From NCBI RefSeq assembly GCF_963853665.1, contig NZ_OY970459.1, positions 4,836,001-4,900,000 of the forward strand: DNA of 64,000 nt, given 5' to 3'. Position numbers and translations under genes: made by a program. Shown one piece after another: positions 15,954-38,007 of this stretch. The first letter of the stretch is position 1. Each line of letters starts with the position of its first letter. The stretch is from Mycobacterium decipiens. GTDB taxonomy: Bacteria; Actinomycetota; Actinomycetes; Mycobacteriales; Mycobacteriaceae. The notes below the pieces were generated by a model. The model was not told the origin of the DNA and did no database searches. It worked only from the letters and a program-made list of their open reading frames with translations.

Positions 15954-15973
15954 ACAAATATCTCCCGTAGCGT

Positions 15974-16121: not shown

Positions 16122-16154
16122 GAACAGAGCACCCGGGGGAGGTGGAAACGCAAG

Positions 16155-16958: not shown

Positions 16959-17515
16959 CCACGGCACTCACCGCCACTCCGGGCCAGACCGCGGGCCCAT
17001 TCTTCGGTTGCGCGCTGCCCTTCGAGCGCGGCAACGAGCTGGTGCCGCCCGGAGCGCCCGGGGCCATCCGACTACACGGCGTGGTTATGGACGGTGCGGG
17101 CACACCCGTTCCAGACGCACTCATCGAGATCTGGCAGGCCGACGCCGACGGTGTGATCCCGGCCGCCACCGGCTCGCTGCGCCGAGACGGCTGGACCTTC
17201 ACCGGCTGGGGCCGCGCTGGCACCGACGACACCGGTCACTACAGCTTCACCACGGTGAAACCTGGTGGATTGCATGAGAATCCCGCACCGTTCATCGCGG
17301 TGACCGTGTTTGCCCGAGGGCTACTGAACCGACTGTTCACCCGCGCCTACCTGCCCGGCGATCGACTGGGGGACGACAAGCTGATCACATCGCTGCCCGC
17401 CGAGCGCCGCTACACCCTGATCGCTGTGCCCGACGAGCACGGCTTCCGCTTCGACATCAAGCTGCATGGCGACAACGAGACAGTATTTCTGCGCTACCCG
17501 GGACATCGGCGATGA
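16955..17515 (+). CDS. pcaG: Protocatechuate 3,4-dioxygenase alpha subunit
   Basis: This 186-residue partner of PcaH keeps the shared fold: TPGQTAGPFFG at the N-terminus, DALIEIWQADADG near 55, GHYSFTTVKPG near 95, and APFIAVTVFARGLLNRLFTR near 110, but without the His-x-His iron site. This is usual for the alpha subunit, which shapes the substrate pocket. The ATG at 16955 overlaps the pcaH stop by four bases, and the pcaB start overlaps its own stop by four bases. The longer frame from 16889 lies inside pcaH and is rejected. Confidence 0.93.
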   Translation: MTTALTATPGQTAGPFFGCALPFERGNELVPPGAPGAIRLHGVVMDGAGTPVPDALIEIWQADADGVIPAATGSLRRDGWTFTGWGRAGTDDTGHYSFTTVKPGGLHENPAPFIAVTVFARGLLNRLFTRAYLPGDRLGDDKLITSLPAERRYTLIAVPDEHGFRFDIKLHGDNETVFLRYPGHRR

Positions 17516-19871: not shown

Positions 19872-20530
19872 GCCGTGCGGTAGTTTGCGATGCGGCCGCC
19901 GACGCGGTCTCGGGAACATCGGATGGGGCAACGATTCTAGTCGGCGGCTTTGGTTTGGCCGGCATGCCGAACCTGCTGATCGATGCGTTAATCGAGCAAG
20001 GCGCTACCGACCTGACCATTGTCAGCAACAACGCCGGCAACGGTGACAGCGGGTTGGCCGCGTTGCTGGCCGCCGGTCGAGTGCGCAAGGTGATCTGCTC
20101 GTTTCCCCGCCAGCCGGATTCGTATGTGTTCAACGGGCTGTATCGAGCCGGCAACATCGCCCTGGAACTCGTGCCTCAGGGCAATCTCGCCGAGCGCATC
20201 CGTGCTGCGGGTGCGGGCATCGGAGCCTTCTTCTGCCCCACCGGGGTCGGTACCGCACTGGCCGAAGGCAGAGAAACACGCACGATTGATGGCCGCAACT
20301 ATGTGCTCGAGTACCCCATCCACGGTGACGTCGCGCTGATCGGTGCGCACATCGCGGACCGGGCCGGAAACCTGGTGTACCGCAAGACCGCCCGCAACTT
20401 CGGGCCCGTGATGGCCACGGCCGCCACGCTAACGGTCGCCGAAGTCTCCCGCATCGTCGAAGTCGGCCAGCTCAACCCAGAGAGCGTCGTCACACCCTGC
20501 ATTTTCGTCGACCGCATCATCCAGAGGTGA
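19868..20530 (+). CDS. pcaI: 3-oxoadipate CoA-transferase subunit A
   Basis: This 220-residue subunit of a class I CoA-transferase has the CoA-binding ILVGGFGLAGMPNLLIDAL motif near residue 24 and the NNAGNGDSGLAALL segment near 55. A C-terminal region with DVALIGAHIADRAGNLVYRK follows near 155. With PcaJ it moves CoA from succinyl-CoA to 3-oxoadipate. It overlaps pcaL by four bases and is followed four bases later by pcaJ. SCOT-type acetoacetate transferases share the fold, but the pca context decides the call. Confidence 0.92.
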   Translation: MSRAVVCDAAADAVSGTSDGATILVGGFGLAGMPNLLIDALIEQGATDLTIVSNNAGNGDSGLAALLAAGRVRKVICSFPRQPDSYVFNGLYRAGNIALELVPQGNLAERIRAAGAGIGAFFCPTGVGTALAEGRETRTIDGRNYVLEYPIHGDVALIGAHIADRAGNLVYRKTARNFGPVMATAATLTVAEVSRIVEVGQLNPESVVTPCIFVDRIIQR

Positions 20531-20534
20531 CCAA

Positions 20535-21215
20535 ATGACCACCACAACAACTACCTCCGAGCGGGTTGAGCACGGCGACGGCGGGCCACTGAACCGCGAC
20601 GAGCTTGCCGCGATCATCGCTCGCGACATCCCCGCGGGGTCCTACGTCAACCTCGGCATCGGAGCGCCCACCCGCATCGCCGACCACCTGTCGCCGCAGG
20701 CCGGCGTGATGCTGCACACCGAGAACGGCATGCTTGGCATGGGAGCGGCCGCCAACGGCAATGACGTCGATCCGGATCTGGTCAATGCCGGCAAGCTCCC
20801 GGTCACCGAGGCACCCGGGGCGTCCTATTTTCACCATGCCGATTCGTTCGCCATGATGCGCGGTGGTCACCTGGACATCTGCGTACTGGGTGCGTTCCAG
20901 GTCAGTCAGCACGGCGATCTGGCCAATTGGCACACCGGTGCGCCGGATGCGATTCCCGCCGTAGGAGGCGCGATGGATCTTGCGATCGGCGCCAAACGGG
21001 TGTACGTGATGATGAACCTGTTCACCAAGTTCGGAGCCGCCAAGCTGGTGCCGGCATGCACGCTGCCACTAACCGGGTTGCGTTGTGTCAGCCGCGTATA
21101 CACCAACCATGCGGTGTTCGACATCGACCGCGACACCGGTGCGGTTCGGGTCCGAGAAACCTTCGGAATCACTATGGCCGATCTCGCCTCGCGGATGGCG
21201 GTTACCCTCTGCTAG
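20535..21215 (+). CDS. pcaJ: 3-oxoadipate CoA-transferase subunit B
   Basis: This 226-residue catalytic subunit has the class I CoA-transferase motif HTENGMLGMG near residue 60, whose Glu forms the covalent CoA thioester. Further family segments are YVNLGIGAPT near 37 and GGAMDLAIGAKRVYVMM near 145. It is the last gene of the operon. A 3-oxoadipyl-CoA thiolase (pcaF) would be needed next but is not in the window; general steroid or fatty-acid thiolases may fill in. It converges with fadE34, 43 bp away. Confidence 0.92.
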   Translation: MTTTTTTSERVEHGDGGPLNRDELAAIIARDIPAGSYVNLGIGAPTRIADHLSPQAGVMLHTENGMLGMGAAANGNDVDPDLVNAGKLPVTEAPGASYFHHADSFAMMRGGHLDICVLGAFQVSQHGDLANWHTGAPDAIPAVGGAMDLAIGAKRVYVMMNLFTKFGAAKLVPACTLPLTGLRCVSRVYTNHAVFDIDRDTGAVRVRETFGITMADLASRMAVTLC

Positions 21216-25180: not shown

Positions 25181-25585
25181 ATGGCAATCACAAGAAGATC
25201 AAAAGCTGTTGCTAGACTCGGTGCGATCGCGGTCGGCCTCGGGGCCGGTCTAGGACTGGCCACCACTGCTTCGGTGGCGCACGCCGATGGGCCAGCCGAA
25301 CCCAATAACGACAACTTTGCGCAGGTCCCCGGGCCACCGCCCCTTGAGCCCAATATGGAAATTAACCCTGATTTTGTTGATGGTGGCGTCGAGAATGGTC
25401 CGCTGTTTCCTCCCGAGGTGTTAAATGACAATAACTTAAATGACAATAACAACGTCGCCGTTCCGCCCCCGGCGGCGGAGGTCCATGACCTTCGAGGCGA
25501 TTATCCGGAGTTATTTGTGCCCGGGCCGAACGACATCCCTCCCTTTCAGGATGGCGCGCCCGGGCCGAACGATGGGGACAACTAA
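25181..25585 (+). CDS. Secreted Asn/Asp/Pro-rich protein of unknown function
   Basis: This 134-residue product has a clear signal peptide: positively charged MAITRRSKAVAR, a Gly/Ala/Leu core, and a SVAHA cleavage site near residue 35. The mature part is about 100 residues, acidic, without cysteine and low in complexity. It is rich in Asn, Asp, Pro and Gly, with two LNDNN copies near 85-94 and two PGPND copies near 117 and 129. A GAAAGGA ribosome-binding site precedes the ATG. The gene is AT-richer than its neighbours. It is probably an extracellular, intrinsically disordered protein. I recognise no family. It sits in an islet flanked by transposase and integrase remnants, near two asparagine-synthetase-like genes. 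Confidence 0.75.
   Translation: MAITRRSKAVARLGAIAVGLGAGLGLATTASVAHADGPAEPNNDNFAQVPGPPPLEPNMEINPDFVDGGVENGPLFPPEVLNDNNLNDNNNVAVPPPAAEVHDLRGDYPELFVPGPNDIPPFQDGAPGPNDGDN
25421..25450. repeat. Perfect 15-bp tandem duplication inside the secreted-protein gene
   Basis: TTAAATGACAATAAC occurs twice back to back, encoding LNDNN twice. It is AT-rich against a GC-rich background and typical of slippage. Confidence 0.9.
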
Positions 25586-25609
25586 TTGCGAGTCGGAGGT
25601 GATTTGAAT

Positions 25610-25640
25610 CCGACTTCGGCTCTAGTTCAGTCGAAGTCGG
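25610..25640. repeat. Hairpin after the secreted-protein gene, 9-bp stem
   Basis: CCGACTTCG at 25610-25618 pairs with CGAAGTCGG at 25632-25640 around a 13-base loop, 25 bp after the stop at 25585. Confidence 0.6.
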
Positions 25641-25656
25641 TCCCGTAAAGGGCTGT

Positions 25657-25695
25657 TCCGACGGTAGTGGGTCGCACTGTCCCACTACCGTCGGA
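25657..25695. terminator. Strong hairpin, 14-15-bp perfect stem, putative terminator
   Basis: CCGACGGTAGTGGG at 25658-25671 pairs perfectly with CCCACTACCGTCGG at 25681-25694 around a nine-base loop, with one extra T-A pair outside. There is no T-tract on either side, as is common for mycobacterial intrinsic terminators. It probably ends the 25181 transcript and lies before the integrase remnant. Confidence 0.65.
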
Positions 25696-25742
25696 GACCT
25701 CAAGCGCTTAAAGCGGCTCTACCGACTTGATGGGGGTCTGGT

Positions 25743-26102
25743 GTGACCGATTCCGATCGTGTCGGTGACAGTGATCCGCTGGAAATTGTCTCTACGAAGT
25801 CGGCTCAGCTATGGGCGGCGCTGTGCCGGGCCTACCAGCTACTCGGTTTCGATACGGCCACCGGTGGCAATGGGGATCACCTACCCAAGGTCACTCCGAT
25901 CAGCTGGTCGCACGAAGCTTCGAGGCTAGGTCGCACGGATATGCCGGATGTTATTCCGAACGATTATCCCAGCCGCACCAAGCGGTCGGCCTATCGTGTC
26001 CACGGCCAGGCCACCTGCGAGCGCCTGAGCTCCCCAACCGTCGACCATCGTGGTGAAGACCGCCTCGTCAGCTCGAAGCAGCCGGACGTCGTCGACCTTT
26101 AG
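25743..26102 (+). CDS. Possible small hypothetical protein (doubtful)
   Basis: An open frame of 119 codons starts at a GTG. The first 50 residues look protein-like (SAQLWAALCRAYQLLGFDTA). The second half lies antisense to a tyrosine-recombinase remnant read on the other strand, so it may not be real coding sequence. No signal peptide or known domain is visible. It could be a truncated gene running into foreign DNA. Confidence 0.25.
   Translation: MTDSDRVGDSDPLEIVSTKSAQLWAALCRAYQLLGFDTATGGNGDHLPKVTPISWSHEASRLGRTDMPDVIPNDYPSRTKRSAYRVHGQATCERLSSPTVDHRGEDRLVSSKQPDVVDL
25975..26098 (-). pseudogene. Tyrosine recombinase (integrase) N-terminal remnant
   Basis: Directly after the MFS gene stop, the minus strand reads VDDVRLLRADEAVFTTMVDG followed by W, AQALAGGLAVDTI. 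This resembles the SAM-like N-terminal domain of actinobacterial XerD-type integrases. Similarity stops after about 40 residues and no catalytic Arg/His/Tyr region follows. It marks the left edge of the MFS-AsnB operon. Confidence 0.45.
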
Positions 26103-27370
26103 ATGTTCCCCGATTGGCAACGGTCTGGCTCGTTCTCCATTGGCTGCCCCTCCAAATGAGGCCTTCTTTGCGCATGGCGTACAACGGCGATCACCACCGA
26201 GATTGTCAGCAGGACAGTTGATGTCGCCACTACTGCGGTCGTCCGTGCGGTGCCGAAGCTCATTGCCCAGACGCCGAAGGCCGCGGCGGCGTAGAGCACC
26301 GACAGGTTCCAGGCCATCGCCACTGTGGTGAAACCGGGCGATGAACCTGCGATGAGTGTCTGCTGGTTTGTGTCGAAGGCGCCCGCGGCGAAGAACCAGA
26401 CGGGAATTAGTGACAGGCTGAGCCACAACCACTGGCTGCAGAACACCGTCGCGACGGTGACACCGACGATGATGAGCCACGCCGGCAAGACGAGATGTTG
26501 GCTGCCGCTGCGCGCATGCACCCGATCCAGGATCCGGCCTGCAACCAGAGATCCAATGCACATACCGGCGCCGCTGAGCGCGCCGATGTAGCCGAGTTGT
26601 GCGACGTCGAGGTGGTATTTGTGAGCCAGTACGTCAAAAAGGTAGGTGAATGCGCCGAGGTTGGCAGCGTGGAAACCGAAGGTGATGACAAGTGTCCACC
26701 GGGTCGGGCCAGGGAGCCAGGCTCGAAATAGCTCGCGAAGCTGACCAGCGAGACCGAGCGCTGTCCGGCGTTGGGGTCGGGCGTGCCCCAAGATCTGGTA
26801 CAGCGCGGGTACTGCTAGCGCGACCGCGACGGCCATCGCGCCGAAGGACCACCGCCACCCAAACTGGCTCGCGATGAGTCCGCCGATGGGCACGCCGAAT
26901 ACCTGGCCGGCAGCGAATCCTCCCATGCCAGCCCCGATCGCTGTGCTGCGCAGCGTGATCGGGGCTGTGTGGGCGATCCATGACCAAATCGCTGGTCCTG
27001 CGGATGAAACACCGAGTCCGGCCATTGCACGTGAGGCCAGGAGCCATCCAAAACCTGGTGACAGGGCTGCTATTACGTTACCGGCCGCAAATAGGGCCGC
27101 ACCGCCAACGATCATCCACCGCGCGCCCAACCTCGGGTATGCCAGGCCCTGGAGGGGGCTGGCGACGGCTTGCACGGCGACATAGATGCTGACCAGGGCC
27201 GCGGCGGTGGTTGTGGCAACCCCGTACTCGTAGCTGAGGGTGGGTAGCAGTGGGGCGACCAGGTACATCTCGGCGCCGAACATGAATAGCAACGCGTAGA
27301 GCAGGCCGTATCGTCGGAGCAGTTCTGCTGTGCCTGAACGCGTTTCGGGGGCCGCAGCGTCAACGCTCAT
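26099..27370 (-). CDS. MFS transporter, DHA1-like exporter
   Basis: This 423-residue integral membrane protein has about twelve hydrophobic segments. The first starts at YGLLYALLFMFGAEMYLVAP near residue 20, and the loop 2-3 region near 75 carries RLGARWMIVGG. It contains GRILDRVHAR near 285, the second-half equivalent of the MFS motif A. The protein resembles drug or sugar-efflux DHA1 transporters. It starts with a four-base overlap on the second AsnB gene, so it is the last member of the operon and most likely exports the operon's product. The C-terminal tail is hydrophilic. Substrate is unknown. Confidence 0.88.
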   Translation of the reverse strand: MSVDAAAPETRSGTAELLRRYGLLYALLFMFGAEMYLVAPLLPTLSYEYGVATTTAAALVSIYVAVQAVASPLQGLAYPRLGARWMIVGGAALFAAGNVIAALSPGFGWLLASRAMAGLGVSSAGPAIWSWIAHTAPITLRSTAIGAGMGGFAAGQVFGVPIGGLIASQFGWRWSFGAMAVAVALAVPALYQILGHARPQRRTALGLAGQLRELFRAWLPGPTRWTLVITFGFHAANLGAFTYLFDVLAHKYHLDVAQLGYIGALSGAGMCIGSLVAGRILDRVHARSGSQHLVLPAWLIIVGVTVATVFCSQWLWLSLSLIPVWFFAAGAFDTNQQTLIAGSSPGFTTVAMAWNLSVLYAAAAFGVWAMSFGTARTTAVVATSTVLLTISVVIAVVRHAQRRPHLEGQPMENEPDRCQSGNI

Positions 27371-29220
27371 AGCGCCAGAACCGGGTCGTAGGTGCGCAGC
27401 CAGTCGTCGAAGTTCAGAGCGAGTTCAGCCTCCACATTGCTGATCAACGCACCGGGTGCGGTGGCGGGCTGCACCGCCCGCTGCAATGCACGCGGATCGA
27501 ACAACTCGGTTAGGCGGCAATCTGGCTCTGCCAGTCGATCCGCGAGCTGACGGCTAGTCTCAGCCGAATAGTCGGGATCGGCGACCGATGGATAAGGCGA
27601 CTTGCGGCGTGCGGCGACAGCACGCGGAATAATGTCGGATACCGCCTGGCGCAGCACGCTTTTTTCCTGTCCGTCCCCGGTTCGAAGGGACCATGCCAGC
27701 GGTGCGACGTATTCCACCAGCCTGTGGTCGCAGAACGGCACCCGAAGCTCTATTCCGGCAGCCATGCTCAGCCTGTCCTTTCGATCCAACAGTGTCGGCA
27801 GGAATCGGCTCAGACCGAGGTAGGTGAGTTCACGCATTCGTTGCTCTTGAGGGCCGCCGCCTGTGGGGGTCAGTTCGGCGAGCGCGGTGCGGTATTGGTC
27901 AGCGACGTAGTCGTCGAGCTGCAGCTTGGCGCGCAGTTCAGGCCGAAACGATGTGGCGATTCGGTGGTGGAGGCGGCCGTGGGCGGGACTGTCGGACATC
28001 CAGGGAAAAGTGTCGGCCATGACCGCGTCGTCGCGGTGGAACCACAGGTAGCCGCCGAAGACTTCATCGGCCGATTCCCCGGACAGTGCGACCGTCGAGT
28101 GCTCCTTGATGGTGGCGCACATTAGGTACAGACTCATGTCAAGATCGCCGATCCCAAGTGGCAGGTCGCGCGATCGGACGCAGGCGCTGCGGGTGTCGCG
28201 GTTAGCCAGAGTCGCCCCGTCAAGGATGATACTGCGGTGGTTGGAGCCGATGAATTGGGCTGCGGCGCTGGCATATTCGGAATCGACGTTGGGGTTGACC
28301 TGCGAGTTGTGGACTGGTGCCGAGAAGTCGATGGAGACCGACCGTATAGGTGCACCATGGCGGCGGGCGTTGGCAAGTGCGGTGATGGCGGTTGAGTCGA
28401 GTCCGCCAGAGAGCAGTGTGCACAACGGCACGTCGGCAACCAGCTGTCGTTGCACGGTGTCGTCCAAAATTGTTCGAACGGTGTGGGCTGCCTCGGCCAG
28501 ACTGGTTGTGCGAGGTGGGCAGGTCAGTGCCTCGTCGAGGGTCCAGTATCGCCGGCGGACAAGTCCGCGGGCCGAGAAGGTGGCGATTTCACCGGGCCGT
28601 ACCTCATCGATGTCGCTGTAGGGCGAACGACCGGGAATTTTGAGCAGTGGAAGCATCAGAGCGACGATGCCTTCCTCGTCGACTTCGGGGCGGCGGGCAT
28701 CGTGCGTCAGGATCGCCTTGGGTTCGGATCCGAAAACCAGCGACGATTCCGTATGGCGGAAGTAGAGGGGCTTGACGCCGAGTCGGTCCCGTACCAGAGT
28801 CAGGGTGCGCTCACGACTGTCCCACACGCCAAACGCGTACATGCCGTTGATCCTGCTGACCGCGGCCGGACCCCACTCGGCCCAGGCCTTGAGGAGCACT
28901 TCGGTATCGCTTGATGTGGTGAAGCTGTGACCGCGTTCAACCAGGGCGACCCGCAATTCGCGATAGTTGTACACCTCGCCGCTGTAGGTGAGGACCAGAT
29001 CGACATTGCCGGTGCTGGGATGGTTATGGGTCATGGGTTGGGCGCCACCGTCTGGGTCGATGATTGCCAGTCGGCGATGACCGAGTCCAGCGATGTCGCA
29101 TCGCCAGATGCCGGCGCCGTTCGGTCCGCGCGGGGCCATGGTGTCCGTCATCCGTGTCAGCACGGTGTCGGCGGTTGGCCCCAGGCCGTGGTAGTCAACC
29201 CATCCAGTGATACCGCACAT
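27367..29220 (-). CDS. AsnB-type glutamine-dependent amidotransferase/synthetase (copy 2)
   Basis: This 617-residue enzyme has a class II glutaminase domain beginning MCGITGWVDYHG, in which Cys2 becomes the N-terminal nucleophile. It has GHRRLAII near 50, SGEVYNYREL near 80 and RDRLGVKPLYFR near 145. The C-terminal synthetase domain (from about 230) has the ATP-pyrophosphatase loop LLSGGLDSTAI near 262 and LSGESADEVFGGYLW near 375. The motif set is complete, so both half-reactions should work. I place the start at the ATG giving Cys2; the longer frame to 29280 would bury the nucleophile. It may make asparagine or, in this operon, an amide on another carboxylate. Copy 1 ends 26 bp upstream. 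Confidence 0.88.
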   Translation of the reverse strand: MCGITGWVDYHGLGPTADTVLTRMTDTMAPRGPNGAGIWRCDIAGLGHRRLAIIDPDGGAQPMTHNHPSTGNVDLVLTYSGEVYNYRELRVALVERGHSFTTSSDTEVLLKAWAEWGPAAVSRINGMYAFGVWDSRERTLTLVRDRLGVKPLYFRHTESSLVFGSEPKAILTHDARRPEVDEEGIVALMLPLLKIPGRSPYSDIDEVRPGEIATFSARGLVRRRYWTLDEALTCPPRTTSLAEAAHTVRTILDDTVQRQLVADVPLCTLLSGGLDSTAITALANARRHGAPIRSVSIDFSAPVHNSQVNPNVDSEYASAAAQFIGSNHRSIILDGATLANRDTRSACVRSRDLPLGIGDLDMSLYLMCATIKEHSTVALSGESADEVFGGYLWFHRDDAVMADTFPWMSDSPAHGRLHHRIATSFRPELRAKLQLDDYVADQYRTALAELTPTGGGPQEQRMRELTYLGLSRFLPTLLDRKDRLSMAAGIELRVPFCDHRLVEYVAPLAWSLRTGDGQEKSVLRQAVSDIIPRAVAARRKSPYPSVADPDYSAETSRQLADRLAEPDCRLTELFDPRALQRAVQPATAPGALISNVEAELALNFDDWLRTYDPVLAL

Positions 29221-29246
29221 CGATTTTTTCCCTTTCAGGTGTGACG

Positions 29247-31076
29247 TCAGCGGATTCGCACGCGATAGTCGGTGAGCCATGTGTTGAGGTTGAGCAGAAA
29301 GCTCAGCCCCGCTGTGGTCGACGATGCAGCGCGTGGGCTCGGCAGCGCCCTATCCATGCCGAATCGTTCCGCGACGGTGCGATGGTCAACGAGATCGAAC
29401 ACCGGTGCCTGGGGCGCGGCGAGTAAATCGCGCACACGGACCTGCAGCGCGTGCAGGTAATTCGGGTCGGGGTTGGGCGGGAAACCGCTCTTACGCCGCC
29501 GCAGCACCTCGTCGGGGAGCAGGTCGGCGACGGCGAGACGAAGCAGCCCCTTTTCCTGGCTGCCCGCAGTCTTGATGTGCCACGGCACATTCCACACGTA
29601 CTCGATCAACCGGTGGTCACAGAATGGGACGCGCACCTCCAGTCCGGTTGCCATGCTGATCCGATCCTTGCGGTCAAGCAACGCGCCCAGCCAGCGAGTT
29701 AGCGCCAGATAGGAGATTCGCCGCGAGACGACGTCCTCGGAGCTTTCGCCGTCCAGCTGAGGGGTACTGCGCACGGCTTCGTCGTACCGTGCTTTGACAT
29801 AGTCATCTGGAGCGACCACGTCGCGGATCTCGCTGCGCAGCAGTACCGATGGGCCTGTCTTGCCGGCCAGCCAGGGGAACCCGTCGAATTCACGCGCGGT
29901 CGGTGAAGTGAAATAGGGGTATCCACCGAATATTTCATCTGCCGACTCACCAGACAACGCGACGGAAGAGAAGCTTTTCACTTGGTCGAACAGGAGGTAC
30001 AGCGACACATCCATTTCGCCCCAGCCGGGTAGGTCGCGTGCGCGCAGCACCTTTTCGTCGTGGGCAAGGATGTCGGCGGGTTCGACGACCACCGTGGTGT
30101 GTTGAGTGCCGAGGTGAGCACTGACGGCAGCGGCATAGGGTTCGTCGCGGGTGGGATGCCAGGTTGTGCTGCGGAAGGATTCAGATGAGCCCGGGAAGTC
30201 GACTGAGTAGCTGGCGATCTTGCCGTGTCCGTGTTCGCGACGAATGCGGCTTGCGATGGCTGTGATTGCGCTCGAATCCAGCCCACCTGAGAGCAAGGCG
30301 CCGACCGAAACATCGGCGACCAATTGTCGCTGCACGATATCGATGAGCAAATCGCGCACGTGAGCGACGGTGGCGCGGGTGTCATCACGATGATCTACTG
30401 CGGTAAGGCTCCAGTACGCGGTGCTCCGCAATCCGGCGCGGTCAATGGTGAGCACGTGGCCGGGTTTGACCTGATTTAGCCCGCAGAACACGCCGTGGCC
30501 GGGCGTCGGCGCAGTCGCAACCGCGAAAACTTCAGCCAACCCGGAGGCGTCGAGCTCAGGAACGAAGATCGGATTGGCCAGCACCGCTTTGGGTTCCGAT
30601 CCGAAGATCAATCCGCTGCCGTAGTAGTGATAGTACAGCGGTTTGATACCGAGGCGGTCGCGCACAAGCACCAGCCGTTGTGCTGCGTCGTCCCATATCG
30701 CGAAGGCGAACATGCCGTTGAGATGCTCGGCGACTGCCGGACCCCACCGCTTGTATCCTTCGAGGATGACCTCGGTGTCCGAGCGGGTGCGGAACGTGTG
30801 CCCGGCGCCAATCAGTTCCGCACGCAGTTCGCCGAAGTTATACACCTCGCCGCTGTAGGTGATGATCGCTTGGGAGTCGGTGGTGGCCATAGGTTGGACT
30901 CCACCTTCGAGATCGATAATGGACAGTCTGCGGTGGCCGAGGAAGGCGTGGGCAGCCGTCCACGTGCCAGCCGCGTCGGGTCCCCTGAGGCGCATGGTGT
31001 CGGTCATAGCGGTCGTTGTGGCGATCTCGGTGGTTAAGTCACGCTCCCAGTCCACCCATCCGGTGATGCCGCACAT
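29247..31076 (-). CDS. AsnB-type glutamine-dependent amidotransferase/synthetase (copy 1)
   Basis: This 609-residue protein starts MCGITGWVDWER with Cys2 as glutaminase nucleophile. It has GHRRLSIIDLEGG near 48, SGEVYNFGEL near 75 and RDRLGIKPLYYH near 140. The synthetase domain has the PPi loop LLSGGLDSSAI near 260, LSGESADEIFGGYPYF near 370 and RVPFCDHRLIEYVW near 480. It is clearly paralogous to the downstream gene but diverges in several synthetase-domain stretches, which suggests two different acceptor substrates. A GAAAGGAG ribosome-binding site precedes the ATG. It lies 24 bp after the unknown 31101-31817 gene. An ordinary asparagine role would not need two adjacent copies. Confidence 0.88.
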   Translation of the reverse strand: MCGITGWVDWERDLTTEIATTTAMTDTMRLRGPDAAGTWTAAHAFLGHRRLSIIDLEGGVQPMATTDSQAIITYSGEVYNFGELRAELIGAGHTFRTRSDTEVILEGYKRWGPAVAEHLNGMFAFAIWDDAAQRLVLVRDRLGIKPLYYHYYGSGLIFGSEPKAVLANPIFVPELDASGLAEVFAVATAPTPGHGVFCGLNQVKPGHVLTIDRAGLRSTAYWSLTAVDHRDDTRATVAHVRDLLIDIVQRQLVADVSVGALLSGGLDSSAITAIASRIRREHGHGKIASYSVDFPGSSESFRSTTWHPTRDEPYAAAVSAHLGTQHTTVVVEPADILAHDEKVLRARDLPGWGEMDVSLYLLFDQVKSFSSVALSGESADEIFGGYPYFTSPTAREFDGFPWLAGKTGPSVLLRSEIRDVVAPDDYVKARYDEAVRSTPQLDGESSEDVVSRRISYLALTRWLGALLDRKDRISMATGLEVRVPFCDHRLIEYVWNVPWHIKTAGSQEKGLLRLAVADLLPDEVLRRRKSGFPPNPDPNYLHALQVRVRDLLAAPQAPVFDLVDHRTVAERFGMDRALPSPRAASSTTAGLSFLLNLNTWLTDYRVRIR

Positions 31077-31100
31077 CGCGGGCTCCTTTCGGTGATGGAG

Positions 31101-31817
31101 TCAGCGCTGATGTGTCGGGTCAGGCGTGCGCAGCGTCCAACGGCAGCCTCGGGCCGCCTCGCTTGTCAGCTGATATGAGCTGTCATAGCCTTTGGCCGCG
31201 AAATTCGCGGCGGTGGCTTTCGTGCAGTATTCACAGGGCGAAGCCAGAGTGATCGGCACCCCTTGCGCTCGGGCCTGTTCACGGTATTGCCAGATGCCGC
31301 ATCGAATGACGGTGATGACGGTCTCCTCGGCGGCCTGATCAACGTCGGTATGGGAGTCGTAGTTGGCGAGTTGGCGCACGAAACGATCAGCGACCGAGCG
31401 TCGGCAGGTGGAACCTGTGGTCGTCGTTGCGTACACGTACGCGTTGGACCGTGCCCAATCAGCCATACGGTCGTGCCCGAAGTGCGCCACGATAAACTGC
31501 TCCATCAGTGCTTGGGCACGGAAAAATACGCGTTTCCAGGCTTCTTCACCCATAGCGAGAGAAGCGTCGGGCAGCCCCTCGAAGATTCTGCTTTTGACTT
31601 GGATCCATTCGTCGATGAGCCCAGGCGCGTTTTCATCGACGAAAAAGCGGGTCATCCCCGACTCCGCCTCGAAGAATCGGCGTTGCCATAACCGGGCGCG
31701 GGCCGCCACATCGTCAGAAACAGCGCCGTCGAATACGTCAGTAACAGCAACCTCGCGCGCCATCGTCATTGTCCGACCGGATCGGCCTCGTACAACGCTA
31801 GACGAGAAACCACTCAT
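31101..31817 (-). CDS. Unknown protein with C-terminal CxxC region, first gene of the AsnB operon
   Basis: I take the ATG at 31817, giving 238 residues; an ATG at 31883 would add 22. The protein is soluble, without a signal peptide. It is helical in the middle (WIQVKSRIFEGLPDASLAMG near 70, FRAQALMEQFIVAHFGHDRM near 100). The C-terminal quarter has a paired-cysteine stretch PCEYCTKATAANFAAKGYDS near 200 and ends with GCRWTLRT. A late Cys-rich segment closing with G-C-x-W-x-L faintly recalls V4R or 2-aminothiazoline-carboxylate-hydrolase-like proteins, but I cannot assign a family. The cysteines could bind metal. It heads the operon with two AsnB enzymes and an exporter, so a substrate-forming or tailoring step is plausible. 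Confidence 0.75.
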   Translation of the reverse strand: MSGFSSSVVRGRSGRTMTMAREVAVTDVFDGAVSDDVAARARLWQRRFFEAESGMTRFFVDENAPGLIDEWIQVKSRIFEGLPDASLAMGEEAWKRVFFRAQALMEQFIVAHFGHDRMADWARSNAYVYATTTTGSTCRRSVADRFVRQLANYDSHTDVDQAAEETVITVIRCGIWQYREQARAQGVPITLASPCEYCTKATAANFAAKGYDSSYQLTSEAARGCRWTLRTPDPTHQR

Positions 31818-31933
31818 TTTGTTACATCCCCCCAGTAAAGATTTGAGCCATTCATTAATAACGGCGACGGCGGTGCCGCTCAAAAAATAGAGTCGATCGA
31901 GGAAGCAATCGTGCGATGGCTTTGTTGTTGATT

Positions 31934-31962
31934 TGAGACAGGAATTATCAATACCCGTCTCA
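31934..31962. promoter_or_regulatory. Inverted repeat upstream of the AsnB operon
   Basis: TGAGAC at 31934-31939 and GTCTCA at 31957-31962 form an inverted repeat with a 17-base, AT-rich spacer. It lies about 120 bp upstream of the first operon gene and may be an operator or part of the element's edge. Confidence 0.3.
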
Positions 31963-32337
31963 GATCATCCTCCGCAGGGTGCGCCCACTTTCACGCCGCC
32001 TCGCCGAGGGCTCATCCACGGGATCTGATCATTCGCTCACAGACTTGAAGCCAACAACACCTCGGAGATGACCAGCGGCATTTGCGGACATTCCGTTGTC
32101 CAGGTGCGCTGCCTCCCGCGTTTCCCGTGCGGTCGTCGCGTGACCGACGGACGAGGCGGGTCGGCGCCGGCCCTCGGCCGCGAATTGGCGCGGGAAGCAA
32201 CCCCCTTGGTGATATCAAGCCCGTAGGCCATGTCACTAAACCTTCCTGTCGCTCGCCGCGGTGACGGTACCACCGGGTTTGGTCGCCTGTTGAATGGTCA
32301 GTGTTCCGGCGTGTTGAGTGGTCCTAGTTGCGGCGTG
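31963..32337. other. Region without a supported gene; element-end repeats near its right side
   Basis: Only short overlapping frames are present. A 64-codon minus-strand frame (MAYGLDITKGVAS...) ends at 32037 and shows no known feature. Near 32288-32341 are repeated CGGCGTGTTGA units (32307-32317 and 32331-32341) and a related TGTTGAATGG, which look like the terminal repeats of an insertion element. Confidence 0.5.
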
Positions 32338-32420
32338 TTGATAACAGCAGCGTGCACGCGGCCCGTGCTGACCAGCCGTGCGCGAGCGCGTGGTCGATCA
32401 GATTCAATACCCCGGCCCTG
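32338..32420 (-). pseudogene. Transposase N-terminal remnant
   Basis: The minus strand reads VLNLIDHALAHGWSARAACT, the helix-turn-helix opening of actinobacterial integrase-core transposases that travel with an AAA ATPase gene. Nothing of the catalytic core follows; the frame runs into the repeat cluster at 32307-32341. Confidence 0.5.
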
Positions 32421-32508: not shown

Positions 32509-32890
32509 TCACTCTGCGGCGACTTCGGCGATGGCTGTGCGAGTGGAGGATTCGTCGACGACGGCCTGGTTGGCGGCGAACGCGGCGACGAGGGCTTGTA
32601 GTACGAGGTTGTTGACCGCGCGGGGGTAGCCACGGCTGGTTTGGTGGATTATCCCGACGGCGTCGTCGGAGAACAGCGTGTCGTCGCGGCCAACCAGTTT
32701 GAGGTGGTGGTGCAGATTGGTATCAGTCTCCTTGTCGGTCATGGGCGTCATCGTGTAGCGCAGCCCGATGCGTTGATCGGGCGCGGCGCGGACACCGAGT
32801 TTCATTTGCCGCACCGCAGGGTTGGTTGGCCGACAAGCAGGCAGGCGAACGGGCTCGACGAATCGAGATCATGGTTGGTGAGCAAGCGGA
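32509..32890 (-). pseudogene. IS-associated AAA ATPase (ExeA/TniB-like), C-terminal remnant
   Basis: From about 32890 the minus strand reads LLTNHDLDSSSPFACLLVGQ followed by PTLR. After a frameshift near 32815 it continues with KLGVRAAPDQRIGLRYTM and TSRGYPRAVNNLVLQALVAA to a stop at 32509. This is the sensor-2 and C-terminal part of the transposition helper ATPases paired with integrase-type transposases. The Walker A and B half is missing, so the gene is dead. It abuts a broken LysR gene, suggesting that the element inserted there. Confidence 0.65.
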
Positions 32891-33150: not shown

Positions 33151-33191
33151 GCATTTTGCAGATCCGCCCCCGATGGCGCAACGTGTCCGTC

Positions 33192-34136
33192 ATGGCGAGT
33201 TCGACTGTGGTCGCTGACCTTGGTGACCGGCCCGCCGATGTGCGGGCGAGGAATCGGCTCGGCGGCCTCGCGTTGATGTTGACCAGTGGATTGTCCAACC
33301 AACTCGGCGCAGCCGCGGGCGCCCATGCGTTCGGGGTGGTCGGCCCGATCGGTGTGGTCGCGGTGCGCCAGTGGATCGCCGGTCTGGTGCTGCTGCTGTG
33401 TGCGCGGCCACGGTTGCACACCCTCAGCGCCAAGCAGTGGCGACCGGTCATCGGTCTCGCTGCGGCGTGGGCGGTCATGAATACCACCCTGTATGTGGCC
33501 GTGGACCGGATTGGTCTCGGGCTGGCGGTGACGCTCGAGTTCCTCGGGCCCCTGGCCGTGGCGTTAGCCTCGTCGCGGCGATTGGTCACGGTTGGCTGCG
33601 CCGCCGTCATCGGCGCCGCGGTGCTCGCGTTGGCCCGGCCGCAGCCGTCCACGGACTACGTCGGTATCGCCTCGGGGTTGGCGGCGGCGGGCTGCTGGGC
33701 GTCCTACATATTGCTCAATCGCACGATAGGGCAACGCATTCCAGGCTCACTTGGCTTGGCGGCAGCGGTTCTGATGTCGTCGTTGGCCTATGTACCGGTA
33801 GGCGTGGTAGTGCTGCTGCACCATAAGCCGACCGTTGCGGCGGCGGGCTACGCGGTGGCGGCGGGCCTGCTCGCCTCGGTGGTGCCGATAGTGACGGACT
33901 TATTGGCGCTGCGGCGCGTGGACGTGCACACCTTCGGCCTATTCATGAGCTTTCAGCCGGTGTTGGCCGCTCTGGTCGGCTTGGTCCTGCTCGGCCAGGC
34001 TCTCGATGGCATCCATTGGGCCGCGATCATCGCCATCGTGGCGGCCAATTGCGCGGCCGCGTTCGCGTCTGGCCGGACCCAGTCCGGTACTCCGCCAGTC
34101 CGAAAGGAGCGTCATGACAACCACCCGTTCGGTTGA
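33192..34136 (+). CDS. EamA/DMT-family permease (RhtA-like metabolite exporter)
   Basis: This 314-residue protein starts at the ATG at 33192 and has ten predicted membrane segments in two EamA repeats (about 20-155 and 165-300). AVRQWIAGLVLLL near 55 and LGLAVTLEFLGPLAVAL near 115 are typical of the first repeat; FGLFMSFQPVLAALVGLVLL near 255 is typical of the second. RhtA-like members export threonine, homoserine and other amino acids. Its last 23 bases overlap the following ornithine-cyclodeaminase-family gene, so the two are coexpressed. The upstream start at 33156 lies in the LysR remnant and is not favoured. Confidence 0.88.
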   Translation: MASSTVVADLGDRPADVRARNRLGGLALMLTSGLSNQLGAAAGAHAFGVVGPIGVVAVRQWIAGLVLLLCARPRLHTLSAKQWRPVIGLAAAWAVMNTTLYVAVDRIGLGLAVTLEFLGPLAVALASSRRLVTVGCAAVIGAAVLALARPQPSTDYVGIASGLAAAGCWASYILLNRTIGQRIPGSLGLAAAVLMSSLAYVPVGVVVLLHHKPTVAAAGYAVAAGLLASVVPIVTDLLALRRVDVHTFGLFMSFQPVLAALVGLVLLGQALDGIHWAAIIAIVAANCAAAFASGRTQSGTPPVRKERHDNHPFG

Positions 34137-35067
34137 CTTCATCTCTGCTCAAGCGGTTTCGGCGGCGCTGACCCCCGCCCGGGCCGTGCAGGCCATCGAG
34201 GATGCACTGCGGGCGGGACTCGATCCGGCTGGAGACTTCCAGCGCACCGTCCTCGACGTAGCCCACGGCCAGTTGCTGGTGATGCCGTCGCAGTCGTCGT
34301 CCAGCGTCGGCGTCAAGGTCGCCACCGTCGCACCCGCCAATCCCGGGCGCGACCTGCCCCTCGTCCAAGCGATATACATCCTGTTCGACGGAAACACGCT
34401 AAGCCCGCGGGTGTTCATCGACGGCGCCGCCCTCACTACGCTGCGCACCCCCGCCGTATCGATCGCCGCTGTCAAGCCTGCGCTGCTACGCGCCAGCACC
34501 CCGTTGCACGTGACGGTGTTTGGCGCCGGCCCACAGGGCGTCGCCCATGTTGACACCATCGCCGACGTGGTGGGGCAGACTCGCCAGATCGCATCGACGA
34601 CCTACGTCGTGCGCCACCCCGACATCGCGCGCCTGCCACCGCAGGCTCACGTCGTTCACGCGCAGTCGCCCGAGGCGATCAGTGCCGTGGAGCGCGCCGA
34701 CGTAATCGTCTGTGCCACCGGGTCTGCGGTGCCGGTGTTCGATTCCCGTGTGGCGAAACGCGACGTCATCGTTATGGCGGTCGGATCACACCGCCCCGAC
34801 CGGCGCGAGGTGGACAGCGCACTCTGCGCCCGCGCCCAGGTCATAGTCGAGGACCCACAGACCGCGCTACGCGAAGGCGGGGACGTGGTCCTGGCCATCG
34901 CCGAATCAGGTTTGACCGCAGGGCAGCTCATCCCGATGAAAGACGTCGTCACCGGCACTTCACCCTTGCACGCCGACCGCGCAGTTTTCTTCAAGAGCAC
35001 CGGCATGGGCTGGGAAGATGCTGTTGTCGCCGAGGCGATCGTCAGCGGGACACTAGATGCCACCTAG
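34114..35067 (+). CDS. Ornithine cyclodeaminase/mu-crystallin family dehydrogenase
   Basis: This 317-residue enzyme starts at the ATG at 34114 after a perfect GAAAGGAG ribosome-binding site; the longer frame from 34006 lies inside the exporter gene. It has the family's substrate region (MPSQSSSSVGVKVATV near 50), the FIDGAALTTLRTPAVSIAAV stretch near 100 and the NAD-binding VTVFGAGPQGVAHVDTI near 130. Family members include ornithine cyclodeaminase, alanine dehydrogenase, ketimine reductases and opine-like synthases, so the substrate is open. The overlapping exporter suggests that an amino acid or imino acid is made or cleared and then exported. It converges with the LacI gene, six bases away. 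Confidence 0.86.
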   Translation: MTTTRSVDFISAQAVSAALTPARAVQAIEDALRAGLDPAGDFQRTVLDVAHGQLLVMPSQSSSSVGVKVATVAPANPGRDLPLVQAIYILFDGNTLSPRVFIDGAALTTLRTPAVSIAAVKPALLRASTPLHVTVFGAGPQGVAHVDTIADVVGQTRQIASTTYVVRHPDIARLPPQAHVVHAQSPEAISAVERADVIVCATGSAVPVFDSRVAKRDVIVMAVGSHRPDRREVDSALCARAQVIVEDPQTALREGGDVVLAIAESGLTAGQLIPMKDVVTGTSPLHADRAVFFKSTGMGWEDAVVAEAIVSGTLDAT

Positions 35068-35073
35068 CATCGA

Positions 35074-36153
35074 CTACGCCGGCGGGCCCGCGGTGCGGCC
35101 CCGGATCAGCTCGGTACCGAGCACCTCGACGACGGGTAGTCCGGACCGCGGCGGCTTCAGCAGCAGCTCGCCCGCCCGGCGCCCCTTCTGCAGGCTCGGC
35201 TGCGCGACCGTCGTCAGCCCTCTGCTTAGTGCCTCTGGCACGCCGTCAAACCCCGTGACGCTCATCTGACCCGGTACGTAAATCCCATGTGCCCGCAGGT
35301 AATCCATGGCTGAGAGGGCCAGTATGTCGGCGGTGCACATCAGCGCGGTGATCCGCGGATTGGCCTCGCACGCCACCTTGGCGGCCGCCCCGCCGGACGT
35401 CGGGAGGTGCTCGTAGCTTTCCACCACGGTCAGCGAATCCGGGTCGACGCCGGCGGCCGTCATCGCTTCCCATACACCGGCGATGCGTTCGCGCTGCACA
35501 TCGAAGGTCGGCGACCCCAGCCTGTCGGCGTCCACCAGGTCTTGCCGGCGGTCCCGCCCCAGCCGCATGGTCAGTAGCCCGAGCTCGCGATGCCCCAACC
35601 CGAGCACGTAGTCGGCAAGCTCGCGCATCGCCGCCCGGTCGTCGATGCCGACCCGCGACACGCCGGAAAGGTCTTTGGGCTGGTCGACCACCACCACCGG
35701 CAGCCGGCGCTGCAGCACCACCTGCAGGTAGGGATCGTCGTCGCATACCGAGTACACCACGAAGCCGTCCACCCCGGCGGCGAGCACCGCGGCGGTGCCG
35801 TCCGCGAGGCTCCGACTGGGGCCGACGGCAACCAGCAACAGTCCCTGTCCCAGCCCTTCGCACGATTGCGCCACTCCCGCAACGAAATCCCGCGCCGCCG
35901 GGTCACTGAAGAAGTAGGTCAGCGGTTCGGCCATCACCAAACCAACCGCGCCGGCTTTGCGGGTCCGCAGCGATCGCGCCACCGGGTCTGGTCCGGCGTA
36001 GCCCATTCGCTTGGCCGTGGCAAGCACCCGCTCACGAAGGTCGGTAGAAAGCTGATCCGGTCTGTTGAAGGCATTCGAGATGGTGGTACGCGACACCTTG
36101 AGCTCGGCTGCCAACGACGCCAGAGTCGCCCGCCTACGCGGTGTGGGACTCAC
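35074..36153 (-). CDS. LacI-family transcriptional regulator
   Basis: The 359-residue protein has an N-terminal LacI helix-turn-helix (ATLASLAAELKVSRTTISNA at about residues 9-28, RPDQLSTDLRERVLATAKRM after it) and a periplasmic-binding-protein-like effector domain from about 60 to 345. The hinge region is at about 45-60. It has the same length and position as M. tuberculosis Rv3575c. The start is a GTG at 36153, eight bases after a TACCCT -10-like hexamer, so the mRNA may be leaderless. Ligand is not known. It diverges from the Zn/Mn ABC transporter operon, but that operon carries its own Zur box. Confidence 0.9.
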   Translation of the reverse strand: MSPTPRRRATLASLAAELKVSRTTISNAFNRPDQLSTDLRERVLATAKRMGYAGPDPVARSLRTRKAGAVGLVMAEPLTYFFSDPAARDFVAGVAQSCEGLGQGLLLVAVGPSRSLADGTAAVLAAGVDGFVVYSVCDDDPYLQVVLQRRLPVVVVDQPKDLSGVSRVGIDDRAAMRELADYVLGLGHRELGLLTMRLGRDRRQDLVDADRLGSPTFDVQRERIAGVWEAMTAAGVDPDSLTVVESYEHLPTSGGAAAKVACEANPRITALMCTADILALSAMDYLRAHGIYVPGQMSVTGFDGVPEALSRGLTTVAQPSLQKGRRAGELLLKPPRSGLPVVEVLGTELIRGRTAGPPA

Positions 36154-36161
36154 GTTCGGTG

Positions 36162-36167
36162 AGGGTA
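36162..36167 (-). promoter_or_regulatory. Putative -10 element of leaderless LacI transcript
   Basis: On the minus strand TACCCT (TAnnnT) precedes the GTG start at 36153 by eight bases, the same spacing as at cysS and lysS. Confidence 0.45.
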
Positions 36168-36214
36168 CAGCGGCCCGACGTGTGGGGGTAGGAGGCGGCG
36201 CTGCACAAATTTGT

Positions 36215-36233
36215 AATGGAAACGATTTTCATT
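36215..36233. promoter_or_regulatory. Zur box before the metal ABC transporter
   Basis: AATGGAAACGATTTTCATT is a near-perfect inverted repeat of the form AATGrAAA-n3-TTTyCATT, closely matching Zur operators of mycobacteria. It lies 38 bp before the binding-protein ATG at 36271. It indicates zinc-responsive repression of the operon. Confidence 0.8.
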
Positions 36234-36270
36234 AGGATTAGCGGGCGGCTGGGCGGCCGCACGAAAGGAA

Positions 36271-37194
36271 ATGGACGTGCGACGGACGCTAAACCGGGTG
36301 GCGAGCCGGCTGCCGGCCATCCTCGTCTGCCTGGTCGGTTCGACCGCGCTGACGGGCTGTGGAACCGATGGCGCGGCGCACCCGGGCGCGGTTGACGTGG
36401 TGGCCTCCACCGACGTGTGGGGCAGCGTGGCACGCGCCGTCACCGGCAGCCACCTGAGTGTGAAGTCCATCCTCACCGGGGCGGATGCCGACCCACATTC
36501 GTATCAGGCCAGTCCCGCGGACGCCGCCGCGATCGTCGACGCAGAGCTGGTGATCTATAACGGCGGCGGCTACGACTCCTGGGTGGACCGGGTGTTGGCC
36601 GCCCATCCCGCCATCCAGTCCGTCGCCGCCTACTCGCTGCTGGACGCCACGAACGACGAAAAAATGCGCAACGAACACGTCTTCTACGACCTGAATGTCG
36701 CGAAGTCGGTCGCGGCAACCATCGCGGACCGGTTGGCGGTCCTCGACCCGGCCAATGCCGGGGACTACCGAGACAACGCCGCGGAGTTCGGCCGCGGCGC
36801 CGACGCGATCGCAAGTTCCGAGCACGCGATCGCGGTCAGCTACCCCGCCGCCGCTGTCCTCGCGACCGAACCCGTCGTGCACTATCTGCTGGCGGCGTCC
36901 GGCCTGAACAATCGCACCCCGGCTACCTTCATCGCGGCGAACGAAAACGACAACGACCCCTCCCCGGCCGACATGGCGGCCGTCCTCGACCTGATCGCCC
37001 GCCGTGAGGTCGCGGCGTTGCTGGTCAATCCGCAGACGCCCACCGCCGCCACCAACGGCCTGCAGGCGGCCGCCCGCCGCGCTGGGGTGCCGATCGCCGA
37101 GGTGACCGAGACCTTGCCCAGCGGAACCGACTACCTGACCTGGCAGCGCGACACCGTCAACCAACTGACGGCCGCGTTGCGGTCGGGCCGCTAG
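36271..37194 (+). CDS. Zn/Mn ABC transporter substrate-binding lipoprotein (ZnuA-like)
   Basis: This 307-residue lipoprotein has a signal sequence ending in the lipobox LTGC near residue 29, which would anchor it outside the membrane. It belongs to the cluster A-I (ZnuA/TroA) binding proteins. Candidate metal ligands are His in ADPHSYQ near 75, His in RNEHVFYD near 134 and later acidic or His residues (EPVVHYLL near 205, NENDNDPS near 225). There is no His-rich loop of the kind seen in some zinc-specific ZnuA proteins. The Zur box points to zinc. An ATG with GAAAGGA in front is used. The operon continues with ATPase and permease genes. Confidence 0.88.
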   Translation: MDVRRTLNRVASRLPAILVCLVGSTALTGCGTDGAAHPGAVDVVASTDVWGSVARAVTGSHLSVKSILTGADADPHSYQASPADAAAIVDAELVIYNGGGYDSWVDRVLAAHPAIQSVAAYSLLDATNDEKMRNEHVFYDLNVAKSVAATIADRLAVLDPANAGDYRDNAAEFGRGADAIASSEHAIAVSYPAAAVLATEPVVHYLLAASGLNNRTPATFIAANENDNDPSPADMAAVLDLIARREVAALLVNPQTPTAATNGLQAAARRAGVPIAEVTETLPSGTDYLTWQRDTVNQLTAALRSGR

Positions 37195-37203
37195 TCCCGG
37201 CCA

Positions 37204-38007
37204 GTGTCTCAGCCAGCGGTTGCACTAACCGGCGCCCGGCTGGCGTTCGGCGATCGTGTGCTCTGGGACCACCTCGACCTGTCGGTGACGCCCGGTGAGT
37301 TCATCGTGGTGCTGGGTCCCAACGGCACCGGAAAGACGTCGCTGCTCAAGGTGCTGCTCGGACAGCTGCCGCTCAGTGCCGGCGCCGCGCTGCTGAACGG
37401 CAAGCCGATCACCGCCGGCAGCGCGCGCATCGGCTATGTGCCGCAACACCATCCGATCGACCCGGAAGTGCTGCTGCGGGGGCGTGACCTGGTTGCCCTC
37501 GGCGTCGACGGACGCCGCTGGGGCCCTATGCCGCTTTCGTCCGCGGGCCGGGCTCACCGCCGCGAGGCGGTGCGGCGGGCGCTGCAACAGGTCAATGGTG
37601 AACGGCTGGCCGATGTCCGGGTCGGGCTGATGTCCGGCGGTGAGTTGCAGCGGGTACGCATCGCCCAGGCGCTGGCCAGCGACCCTACGCTGATGCTCTG
37701 CGATGAGCCGCTGCTGGCGTTGGATCCGGCCAACGCCAAGCTGGTGTCGGAGCTGATCGACCGGCGCCGCAAGGAAGCTGGAACCGCCGTCATCGTCGTC
37801 ACCCACGAGGTCAACCCGATGCTGCCGTACGTGGACCGGGTGCTTTATCTGGTCGATGGGAGATTCCTGATCGGCACCGTCGAGCAGGTCATGACCACCG
37901 AGACATTGTCGGCGCTGTACCGGGCCGACATGCAGGTAGTGAAAGTCGGCAACGGACGCGACGTCCGCTACGTGGTGATCGGCGAGCCGGAAGGACAGGC
38001 CCGATGA
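37204..38007 (+). CDS. Zn/Mn ABC transporter ATPase (ZnuC-like)
   Basis: This 267-residue ATPase starts with GTG nine bases after the binding-protein gene. Walker A is GPNGTGKTS near residue 38, the Q-loop is in GYVPQHHP near 80, the ABC signature is LMSGGELQRVRIAQAL near 142, Walker B is LMLCDEPLLALD near 162, and the switch His is in VIVVTHEV near 200. The signature begins LMSGG instead of LSGGQ, a usual variant in this subfamily. Its stop overlaps the permease start by four bases. Confidence 0.9.
   Translation: MSQPAVALTGARLAFGDRVLWDHLDLSVTPGEFIVVLGPNGTGKTSLLKVLLGQLPLSAGAALLNGKPITAGSARIGYVPQHHPIDPEVLLRGRDLVALGVDGRRWGPMPLSSAGRAHRREAVRRALQQVNGERLADVRVGLMSGGELQRVRIAQALASDPTLMLCDEPLLALDPANAKLVSELIDRRRKEAGTAVIVVTHEVNPMLPYVDRVLYLVDGRFLIGTVEQVMTTETLSALYRADMQVVKVGNGRDVRYVVIGEPEGQAR

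Follow-up and report, generated by a model that had tools for sequence, protein, structure and literature searches.

A conserved operon of paired AsnB-type amidotransferases and a four-cysteine protein in Mycobacterium decipiens as a candidate specialised-metabolite cassette

The genome of Mycobacterium decipiens (RefSeq assembly GCF_963853665.1, one 5.30-Mb contig, NZ_OY970459.1) carries a compact operon in which two asparagine synthetase-like (AsnB-type) proteins stand in tandem between a four-cysteine protein, here called C9, and a transporter of the major facilitator superfamily (MFS). This locus raises the question of what two such enzymes might be doing side by side, and whether asparagine supply is involved at all. 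The window analysed is the whole 64,000-nucleotide stretch at contig positions 4,836,001 to 4,900,000 (forward strand), and the operon occupies its positions 26099-31817 on the minus strand. The four-gene cassette is conserved, belongs to the known AsnB-type natural-product amidation and is marked by the uncharacterised C9 family. With moderate confidence, we regard it as a horizontally acquired specialised-metabolite cassette making and exporting a small amide-type product. The features of the operon are as follows (A1 and A2 are the two AsnB-type proteins).

31101..31817, minus strand: C9, 238 aa, true start probably about 25 residues later; four invariant cysteines (C173, C195, C198, C225)
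31224..31235, minus strand: CxxC motif of C9, C195-E-Y-C198
29247..31076, minus strand: A1, AsnB-type amidotransferase (N-terminal nucleophile glutaminase plus ATP-pyrophosphatase), 609 aa; nearest solved relative TsnB9 (7YLZ, 46% identity)
30003..30038, minus strand: putative acceptor loop of A1, RDLPGWGEMDVS; E. coli AsnB equivalent TTIRASTP
30273..30290, minus strand: SGGLDS pyrophosphatase loop of A1
27367..29220, minus strand: A2, second AsnB-type amidotransferase, 617 aa; separate orthologous lineage
26099..27370, minus strand: MFS transporter, 423 aa; PF07690; overlapping A2 by 4 bp

The tight minus-strand arrangement described in the first-pass annotation of this DNA was borne out: the four open reading frames, in the order C9, A1, A2, MFS, are all uninterrupted, with intergenic spacings of 24 bp (C9/A1), 26 bp (A1/A2) and −4 bp (A2/MFS, an overlap). 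Purine-rich sequences resembling ribosome-binding sites were seen by eye upstream of A1 and A2. The longest ATG-initiated frame of A2 encodes 637 aa; the internal ATG at 29220, giving 617 aa and a cysteine at position 2, is the likely start. The promoter scan of 25400-32400 found no sigma-70-like promoter (shuffled sequences give 1.5), and the terminator scan of the same region listed two terminator-like sites (shuffled sequences give 4.9).

Both A1 and A2 have the Pfam architecture GATase_6/7 plus Asn_synthase. The residue check agreed with the earlier claim that the N-terminal cysteine nucleophile and the ATP pyrophosphatase loop are retained: neither protein has lost the catalytic Cys2 or the SGGLDS loop, and both also keep the glutaminase Arg/Asp and the Glu/Asp/Lys of the second domain (synthetase site). 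Across the family, the catalytic Cys and Arg were present in all 43 A1/A2 sequences with an N-terminus (two more are cut), and the pyrophosphate-loop Asp in 45 of 45. The putative acceptor loop differs from that of E. coli: the TTIRASTP stretch of E. coli AsnB, whose TTxR residues we take to serve aspartate and pyrophosphate binding, reads RDLPGWGEMDVS in A1, RDLPLGIGDLDMS in A2 and WDLPWGMGDINGS in TsnB9, and a DLP-G-G(D/E) loop is common to A1, A2, TsnB9 and the other members of their clade that were checked. The loss of TTxR alone proves little, because the two other AsnB proteins of the same genome, L003 (AFRTSF) and L004 (VADPAL), retain it partly at best.

Comparison of A1 with the Protein Data Bank (PDB) matched seven sequences, the best being 7YLZ ("hydroxyamidotransferase", 540 bits, versus 158 bits for E. 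coli AsnB), identified as TsnB9 in PMC13122635. The pairwise identities to TsnB9 are 46% for A1 and 41.5% for A2, and A1 and A2 are 43% identical to each other; identities to L003/L004 are lower (A1, 30-36%; A2, 27-29%). In a 38-row tree, A1, A2, TsnB9 and eight paralogues from other C9-bearing genomes formed a 30-row clade (100/100). L003, which we infer to be the housekeeping AsnB of the genome, pairs with a Streptomyces noursei protein outside this clade, and L004 also falls outside. The A2 orthologues constitute a clade of their own (8 rows, 100/100) that is joined with TsnB9 and paralogues in 17 rows (98/100), while the A1 rows were not resolved as a single clade, and neither A1 nor A2 has TsnB9 as its sister. 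Long branches (L095, L004) are present in the tree, which carries a warning of long branches meeting, and its outgroup does not form one side of a branch. The tree sets A1 and A2 apart from the other AsnB proteins of the genome. The first-pass annotation had proposed that its reading would fall if both AsnB proteins grouped with housekeeping enzymes, with all substrate residues conserved, and the four genes were not associated elsewhere; neither was observed.

The association of the four genes was followed through an alignment-based C9 scan, restricted to one genome per species, which gave 40 loci; an initial scan of genome contigs with the C9 sequence alone had found no relative. The counts below refer to 41 loci of Actinomycetota and Alphaproteobacteria (39 of the 40, with L047 excluded for its broken C9, plus the loci of two mycobacteria, G050 and G220) and to tblastn matches on either strand anywhere within about 10 kb of C9; many of these loci come from related Kitasatospora and Streptomyces and so are not independent events. 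A1 was found near C9 in 33 loci, A2 in 9 and either of them in 37, and the C9 and A1 matches lie less than 150 bp apart in 30. The association of C9 with AsnB-type genes is more than chance. The four loci with neither A1 nor A2 were L010 (a 7-kb contig), L041 (C9 at the contig end), L025 and L045. Other recurrent neighbours were: MFS (32/41), flavin reductase (30/41), an Opp-type binding protein (30/41), HpaB (28/41), a methyltransferase (28/41) and 3-deoxy-D-arabino-heptulosonate 7-phosphate (DAHP) synthase of class I or II (10/41).

The exact order C9-A1-A2-MFS was present in the window, in G050 and G220 (loci L051 and L052) and in a contig of the distant, methane-oxidising Methylocystaceae (L014), so that the set is kept elsewhere, as the proposed co-occurrence search was meant to establish, and is not private to this window. 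A1 and A2 are 75-78% identical to their counterparts in G050/G220, where further genes extend the operon (flavin reductase, HpaB, DAHP synthase, C9, A1, A2, MFS) and genes for a SARP-type regulator (Streptomyces antibiotic regulatory protein) and an Opp-type transporter diverge from it. L014 has a TonB-dependent receptor two genes upstream of C9, whose resemblance to siderophore receptors is weak (51.9 bits, cut-off 223.5). L008 and L011 (Embleya/Streptomyces noursei) keep A1-A2-MFS, with amidase and FAD oxidoreductase genes separating C9 from A1. Two plasmid loci were also related: one of Rhodococcus, with Rieske subunits, a distant C9 relative, DAHP synthase and MFS; and one of Rhizobium, with a C9 fragment, DAHP synthase and an A2-type AsnB (51%). 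DAHP synthases of both classes occur near C9, which suggests that shikimate supply was recruited repeatedly to these loci. In L009, L010, L012, L015 and L016, DAHP synthase follows directly after C9 (assigned by Pfam to class II in L010), and four of these five also have an A2-type AsnB; L009 has extra luciferase-like, AMP-binding and aldehyde-dehydrogenase-like genes, perhaps encoding an aromatic carboxylate reductase.

C9 is known from Streptomyces, Kitasatospora and Micromonospora, from some mycobacteria and from alphaproteobacteria, and some Pseudomonas aeruginosa have a relative of it. Among mycobacteria it is rare, being found in 3 of 396 genomes (genus search) and 3 of 394 (class search), own genome included. 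Two C9 relatives (P0124, P0126) belong to sequence clusters of 421 and 241 members named Pseudomonas aeruginosa; no Pseudomonas locus was among the 40 loci of the genome-contig scan. In an actinomycete of another family (G489, L101 9645-10844), C9 lies within a longer 399-aa frame; HpaB, an Opp-type binding protein and a regulator of the MmyB type are beside it, and the 20-kb stretch contains no A1/A2. The Methylosinus protein (L043) is a fusion of C9 with a methyltransferase domain, encoded alongside Rieske dioxygenase subunits.

The description of C9 as an unknown CxxC protein stood insofar as it matches no Pfam family (no match at E up to 0.001, and with E relaxed to 10 none that passes a cut-off), but the protein is not isolated: a search at E up to 0.01 gives 132 database relatives, and C9 has a confident predicted structure (predicted local distance difference test score, 93). 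All four cysteines are invariant in 41 of 41 aligned members. The closest relatives are from Mycobacteroides and a Mycobacterium (73-75% identity). The start position is in doubt: the nearest relatives, Mycobacteroides proteins of 213 aa, lack about the first 25 residues of the 238-aa version, and the 184-aa start of the protein-database entry (P0005) is too late, because it falls within the conserved region and residues 40-54 would be lost. The predicted structure loosely resembles the H-NOX, TRAPP-Bet3, BcsD, YslB and MopR aromatic-sensor folds, which makes it a possible member of the H-NOX/TRAPP/V4R-like fold group, with no detectable sequence similarity; a C9 profile searched against PDB sequences gave no match, even at E 10. 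Three listed relatives (P0041, P0077, P0082) have the submitter-given name L-2-amino-thiazoline-4-carboxylic acid hydrolase (PF14196), and the cysteine spacing is similar by eye. This identity was rejected: the PF14196 model had no match in C9 or 24 relatives, and an hhalign comparison, whose template is two sequences only, gave a probability of 0.2%. The search of ten C9-bearing genomes with PF14196 found none, no genome giving any match; the model matches in 4 of 246 genomes of the class.

The transporter matches MFS_1/PF07690 (148.8 bits) and its best NCBIfam resemblance, far below the cut-off, is to Cmx/CmrA-type efflux proteins; it is probably an exporter.

These observations can be joined in a provisional scheme. 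C9 would bind or process an aromatic or other shikimate-derived carboxylic acid, perhaps as a four-cysteine, possibly metal-thiolate, small-molecule-binding protein. At the N-terminal cysteine of A1 and of A2, a gamma-glutamyl donor, which would be glutamine or possibly gamma-glutamyl hydroxamate, would give up a nitrogen nucleophile; this nucleophile would pass through the internal tunnel to the SGGLDS site, where the carboxylate would be adenylated and converted into an amide (or a hydroxamate). The two enzymes may act on different carboxyls, or in sequence, and the MFS protein would export the small product. We infer the identity of donor and product, the role of C9, the direction of transport and the aromatic precursor, the last because genes for DAHP synthase, HpaB and ring-hydroxylating dioxygenase stand beside C9 in relatives, not in this operon. 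HpaB, methyltransferase, Opp-type binding protein and DAHP synthase in those relatives point to a product that is shikimate-derived, amidated and exported. The earlier suggestion that two amidation steps and an exporter make a small secreted metabolite is still the best reading of the operon, now with a separate AsnB clade and a conserved four-gene association behind it. The accompanying statement that the operon fits no pathway type was too strong, as AsnB-type enzymes that work outside the logic of nonribosomal peptide synthetases (NRPS), lasso peptides or ribosomally synthesised and post-translationally modified peptides (RiPP), or that amidate late, are known, among them TsnB9/SaHAT, SidA and FzmA.

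Several other explanations have to be weighed against this scheme. Two redundant asparagine synthetases with an exporter, serving ordinary asparagine supply, are a very improbable account. Both AsnB proteins pass the cut-off of NCBIfam TIGR01536 (asn_synth_AEB; 508.8 and 437 bits), and the TTxR stretch is altered in the other two AsnB proteins of the genome as well. However, TIGR01536 does not discriminate, because AsnB-type paralogues of other genomes within the A1/A2/TsnB9 clade pass it too; L003 and L004 are likewise above the cut-off, the former pairing with the Streptomyces protein, and A1 and A2 lie in a different clade from both. A1 and A2 are therefore unlikely to be housekeeping enzymes, and on the tree we rejected that identity. 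Even harder to credit is that they act on a peptide, be it as lasso or macrolactam cyclases or as beta-lactam synthetases. The matches in this direction are weak (lasso cyclase NF033535, 209.2 and 192.6 bits; beta-lactam synthetase, 33 bits) and far under the curated cut-offs (525 for NF033535; 76.9 and 98.0 versus 300 for NF033561), which led us to reject these identities, and no leader protease, recognition protein or NRPS was found among the scanned part of the neighbours in the window and related loci.

A more serious competitor, which we nevertheless hold to be unlikely, is that A1 and/or A2 are true hydroxyamidotransferases with a gamma-glutamyl hydroxamate donor; in the wider family HpaB, flavin reductase and C9 would replace the TsnB7/TsnB6 amide oxygenase, and the product would be a hydroxamate metal chelator or metalloenzyme inhibitor. 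TsnB9 is the closest solved structure of A1, although 7YLZ is the sole sequence of its kind among the seven PDB matches and its top score is therefore unspecific. The donor-site change from NGE to SGE is common to A1 and A2 of the window and TsnB9, but Asn is retained at this position in 22 of 34 A1 and 5 of 10 readable A2 sequences; we rejected the change as a strict hydroxyamidotransferase marker, and, as only part of the family shares it, it does not settle the donor. The Kitasatospora-type cluster (C9, A1, an oxygenase pair, a methyltransferase) parallels TsnB6/7/8/9 in a suggestive way, and the TonB-dependent receptor near C9 in L014 would suit a siderophore. Against this, the window has no AurF-type oxygenase (the genome has three AurF-family places above the cut-off and one weak one, all elsewhere), two C9-HpaB loci lack A1/A2, and the HpaB and DAHP synthase of G220 had no match in the own genome, in a search run without a positive control whose empty result shows nothing alone. 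It is also rather improbable that the operon is a non-functional remnant of a cluster that once resembled L051/L052, carrying DAHP synthase, HpaB, flavin reductase, a SARP regulator and an Opp transporter, and that lost its precursor genes in this lineage. Those neighbouring genes are absent here, the operon has a lower average GC, though overlapping that of other window genes, and it sits amid transposase and element remnants; yet the four frames are intact, A1 and A2 remain close to those of G050/G220 with the checked catalytic residues kept, and L014 has the same bare four-gene order. Speculatively, and with considerable doubt, the C9 clusters might belong together as a class of shikimate-linked pathways that spans phyla and has gone unrecognised, with C9 and (mostly) HpaB giving N-oxygenated nitrogen to one or two hydroxyamidotransferases and yielding aromatic hydroxamates or bis-amides as secreted, re-imported metal chelators, the window operon being the minimal two-transferase form.

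The surroundings of the operon bear on its origin. Three further features flank it:

25657..25695, strand undefined: 15-bp perfect inverted repeat with a 9-nt loop, downstream of the operon; possible terminator, unlisted by the terminator scan
31927..32011, plus strand: Rfam Ms_AS-8 element, upstream of the operon; two other partial copies in the genome
24551..24715, minus strand: Mutator-family transposase fragment (PF00872, E 7e-12), downstream of the operon

The four operon genes have a GC content of 59.8-63.3% and a third-position GC of 66-73%; for 14 other genes of the window the values are 60-70% and 64-88%, so that the ranges overlap but the operon averages are lower. The blastn similarity of L051 and L052 to the window is confined to the operon. 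Acquisition by horizontal transfer is likely, as suggested by the mobile-element remnants nearby. One genomic copy of Ms_AS-8 (L054) adjoins a Mutator-family transposase gene, while the copy in L055 has no obvious transposase by eye; we therefore set aside a regulatory RNA, and the element, and likewise the RNA family ("Actinobacteria sRNA"), is perhaps an insertion-sequence end. By eye, the MFS gene is immediately followed by a truncated recombinase N-terminus (25926-26110), and upstream of the operon lies a decayed frame that resembles a transposition ATPase (32509-32814); Pfam confirmed neither. Further upstream (33156-38852) lie an EamA transporter, ornithine-cyclodeaminase-like genes, a LacI-type regulator and a ZnuA/ABC (ATP-binding cassette) zinc-uptake set. 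Close to the operon, an aromatic catabolism island (13879-21215) includes Rieske dioxygenase and protocatechuate 3,4-dioxygenase-type subunits, a pcaB-like lyase, a fusion of alpha/beta hydrolase and carboxymuconolactone decarboxylase, and CoA-transferase genes. The ring-hydroxylating dioxygenase of the window (13.9-16.0 kb) is 29-30% identical to the C9-linked alpha subunits of L066/L043, which are 41% identical to each other, and its co-inheritance with the operon was judged unlikely.

No description of the cassette was found in the literature searched, whose coverage left out most subscription journals. The cassette represents a compact pathway family marked by C9 that genome mining keyed to NRPS, polyketide synthases or RiPP would probably miss. 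For amide or hydroxamate chemistry, it offers a pair of distinct AsnB-type transferases together with a new candidate domain.

Precedents for AsnB-type enzymes in natural-product pathways include TsnB9 and DnfC (PMC11160463); ActJ/MatC (PMC5719088); and Dip5, for which a comparison with 7YLZ is given (PMC13122635). The closest known systems are the trichostatin A cassette TsnB6/7/8/9 (accessory protein, oxygenase, methyltransferase and transferase) and the benzohydroxamic acid cassette SaAmOx-AS/SaAmOx/SaHAT, in which SaHAT is described as converting benzoate into benzohydroxamate with glutamyl hydroxamate and ATP (PMC13418202). As proposed for A1 and A2, an AsnB-type transferase there takes a free carboxylic acid as its acceptor and a gamma-glutamyl compound as its donor, and the likeness extends to the oxygenase, small protein and methyltransferase beside the transferase in many C9 loci; in contrast, the window has no AurF-type TsnB7 and has two transferases in tandem, and the parallel between C9 and TsnB6 is one of gene layout only. 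In the siderochelin cluster, SidA, likewise an AsnB-type enzyme, is reported to be required for the carboxamide of a small iron chelator; the gene composition of that cluster appears to differ from the cassette, and the two are likened by description only (PMC11481915). FzmA of the fosfazinomycin pathway, also likened by description, is an AsnB homologue that frees an N-X nucleophile, hydrazine, from a glutamyl carrier, glutamylhydrazine, though its transfer to arginine was not demonstrated there; its acceptor differs and no glutamine-synthetase-like gene was found among the scanned C9-locus genes, but the pathway, as described, has an amidase homologue, as do L008 and L011 (PMC6133997).

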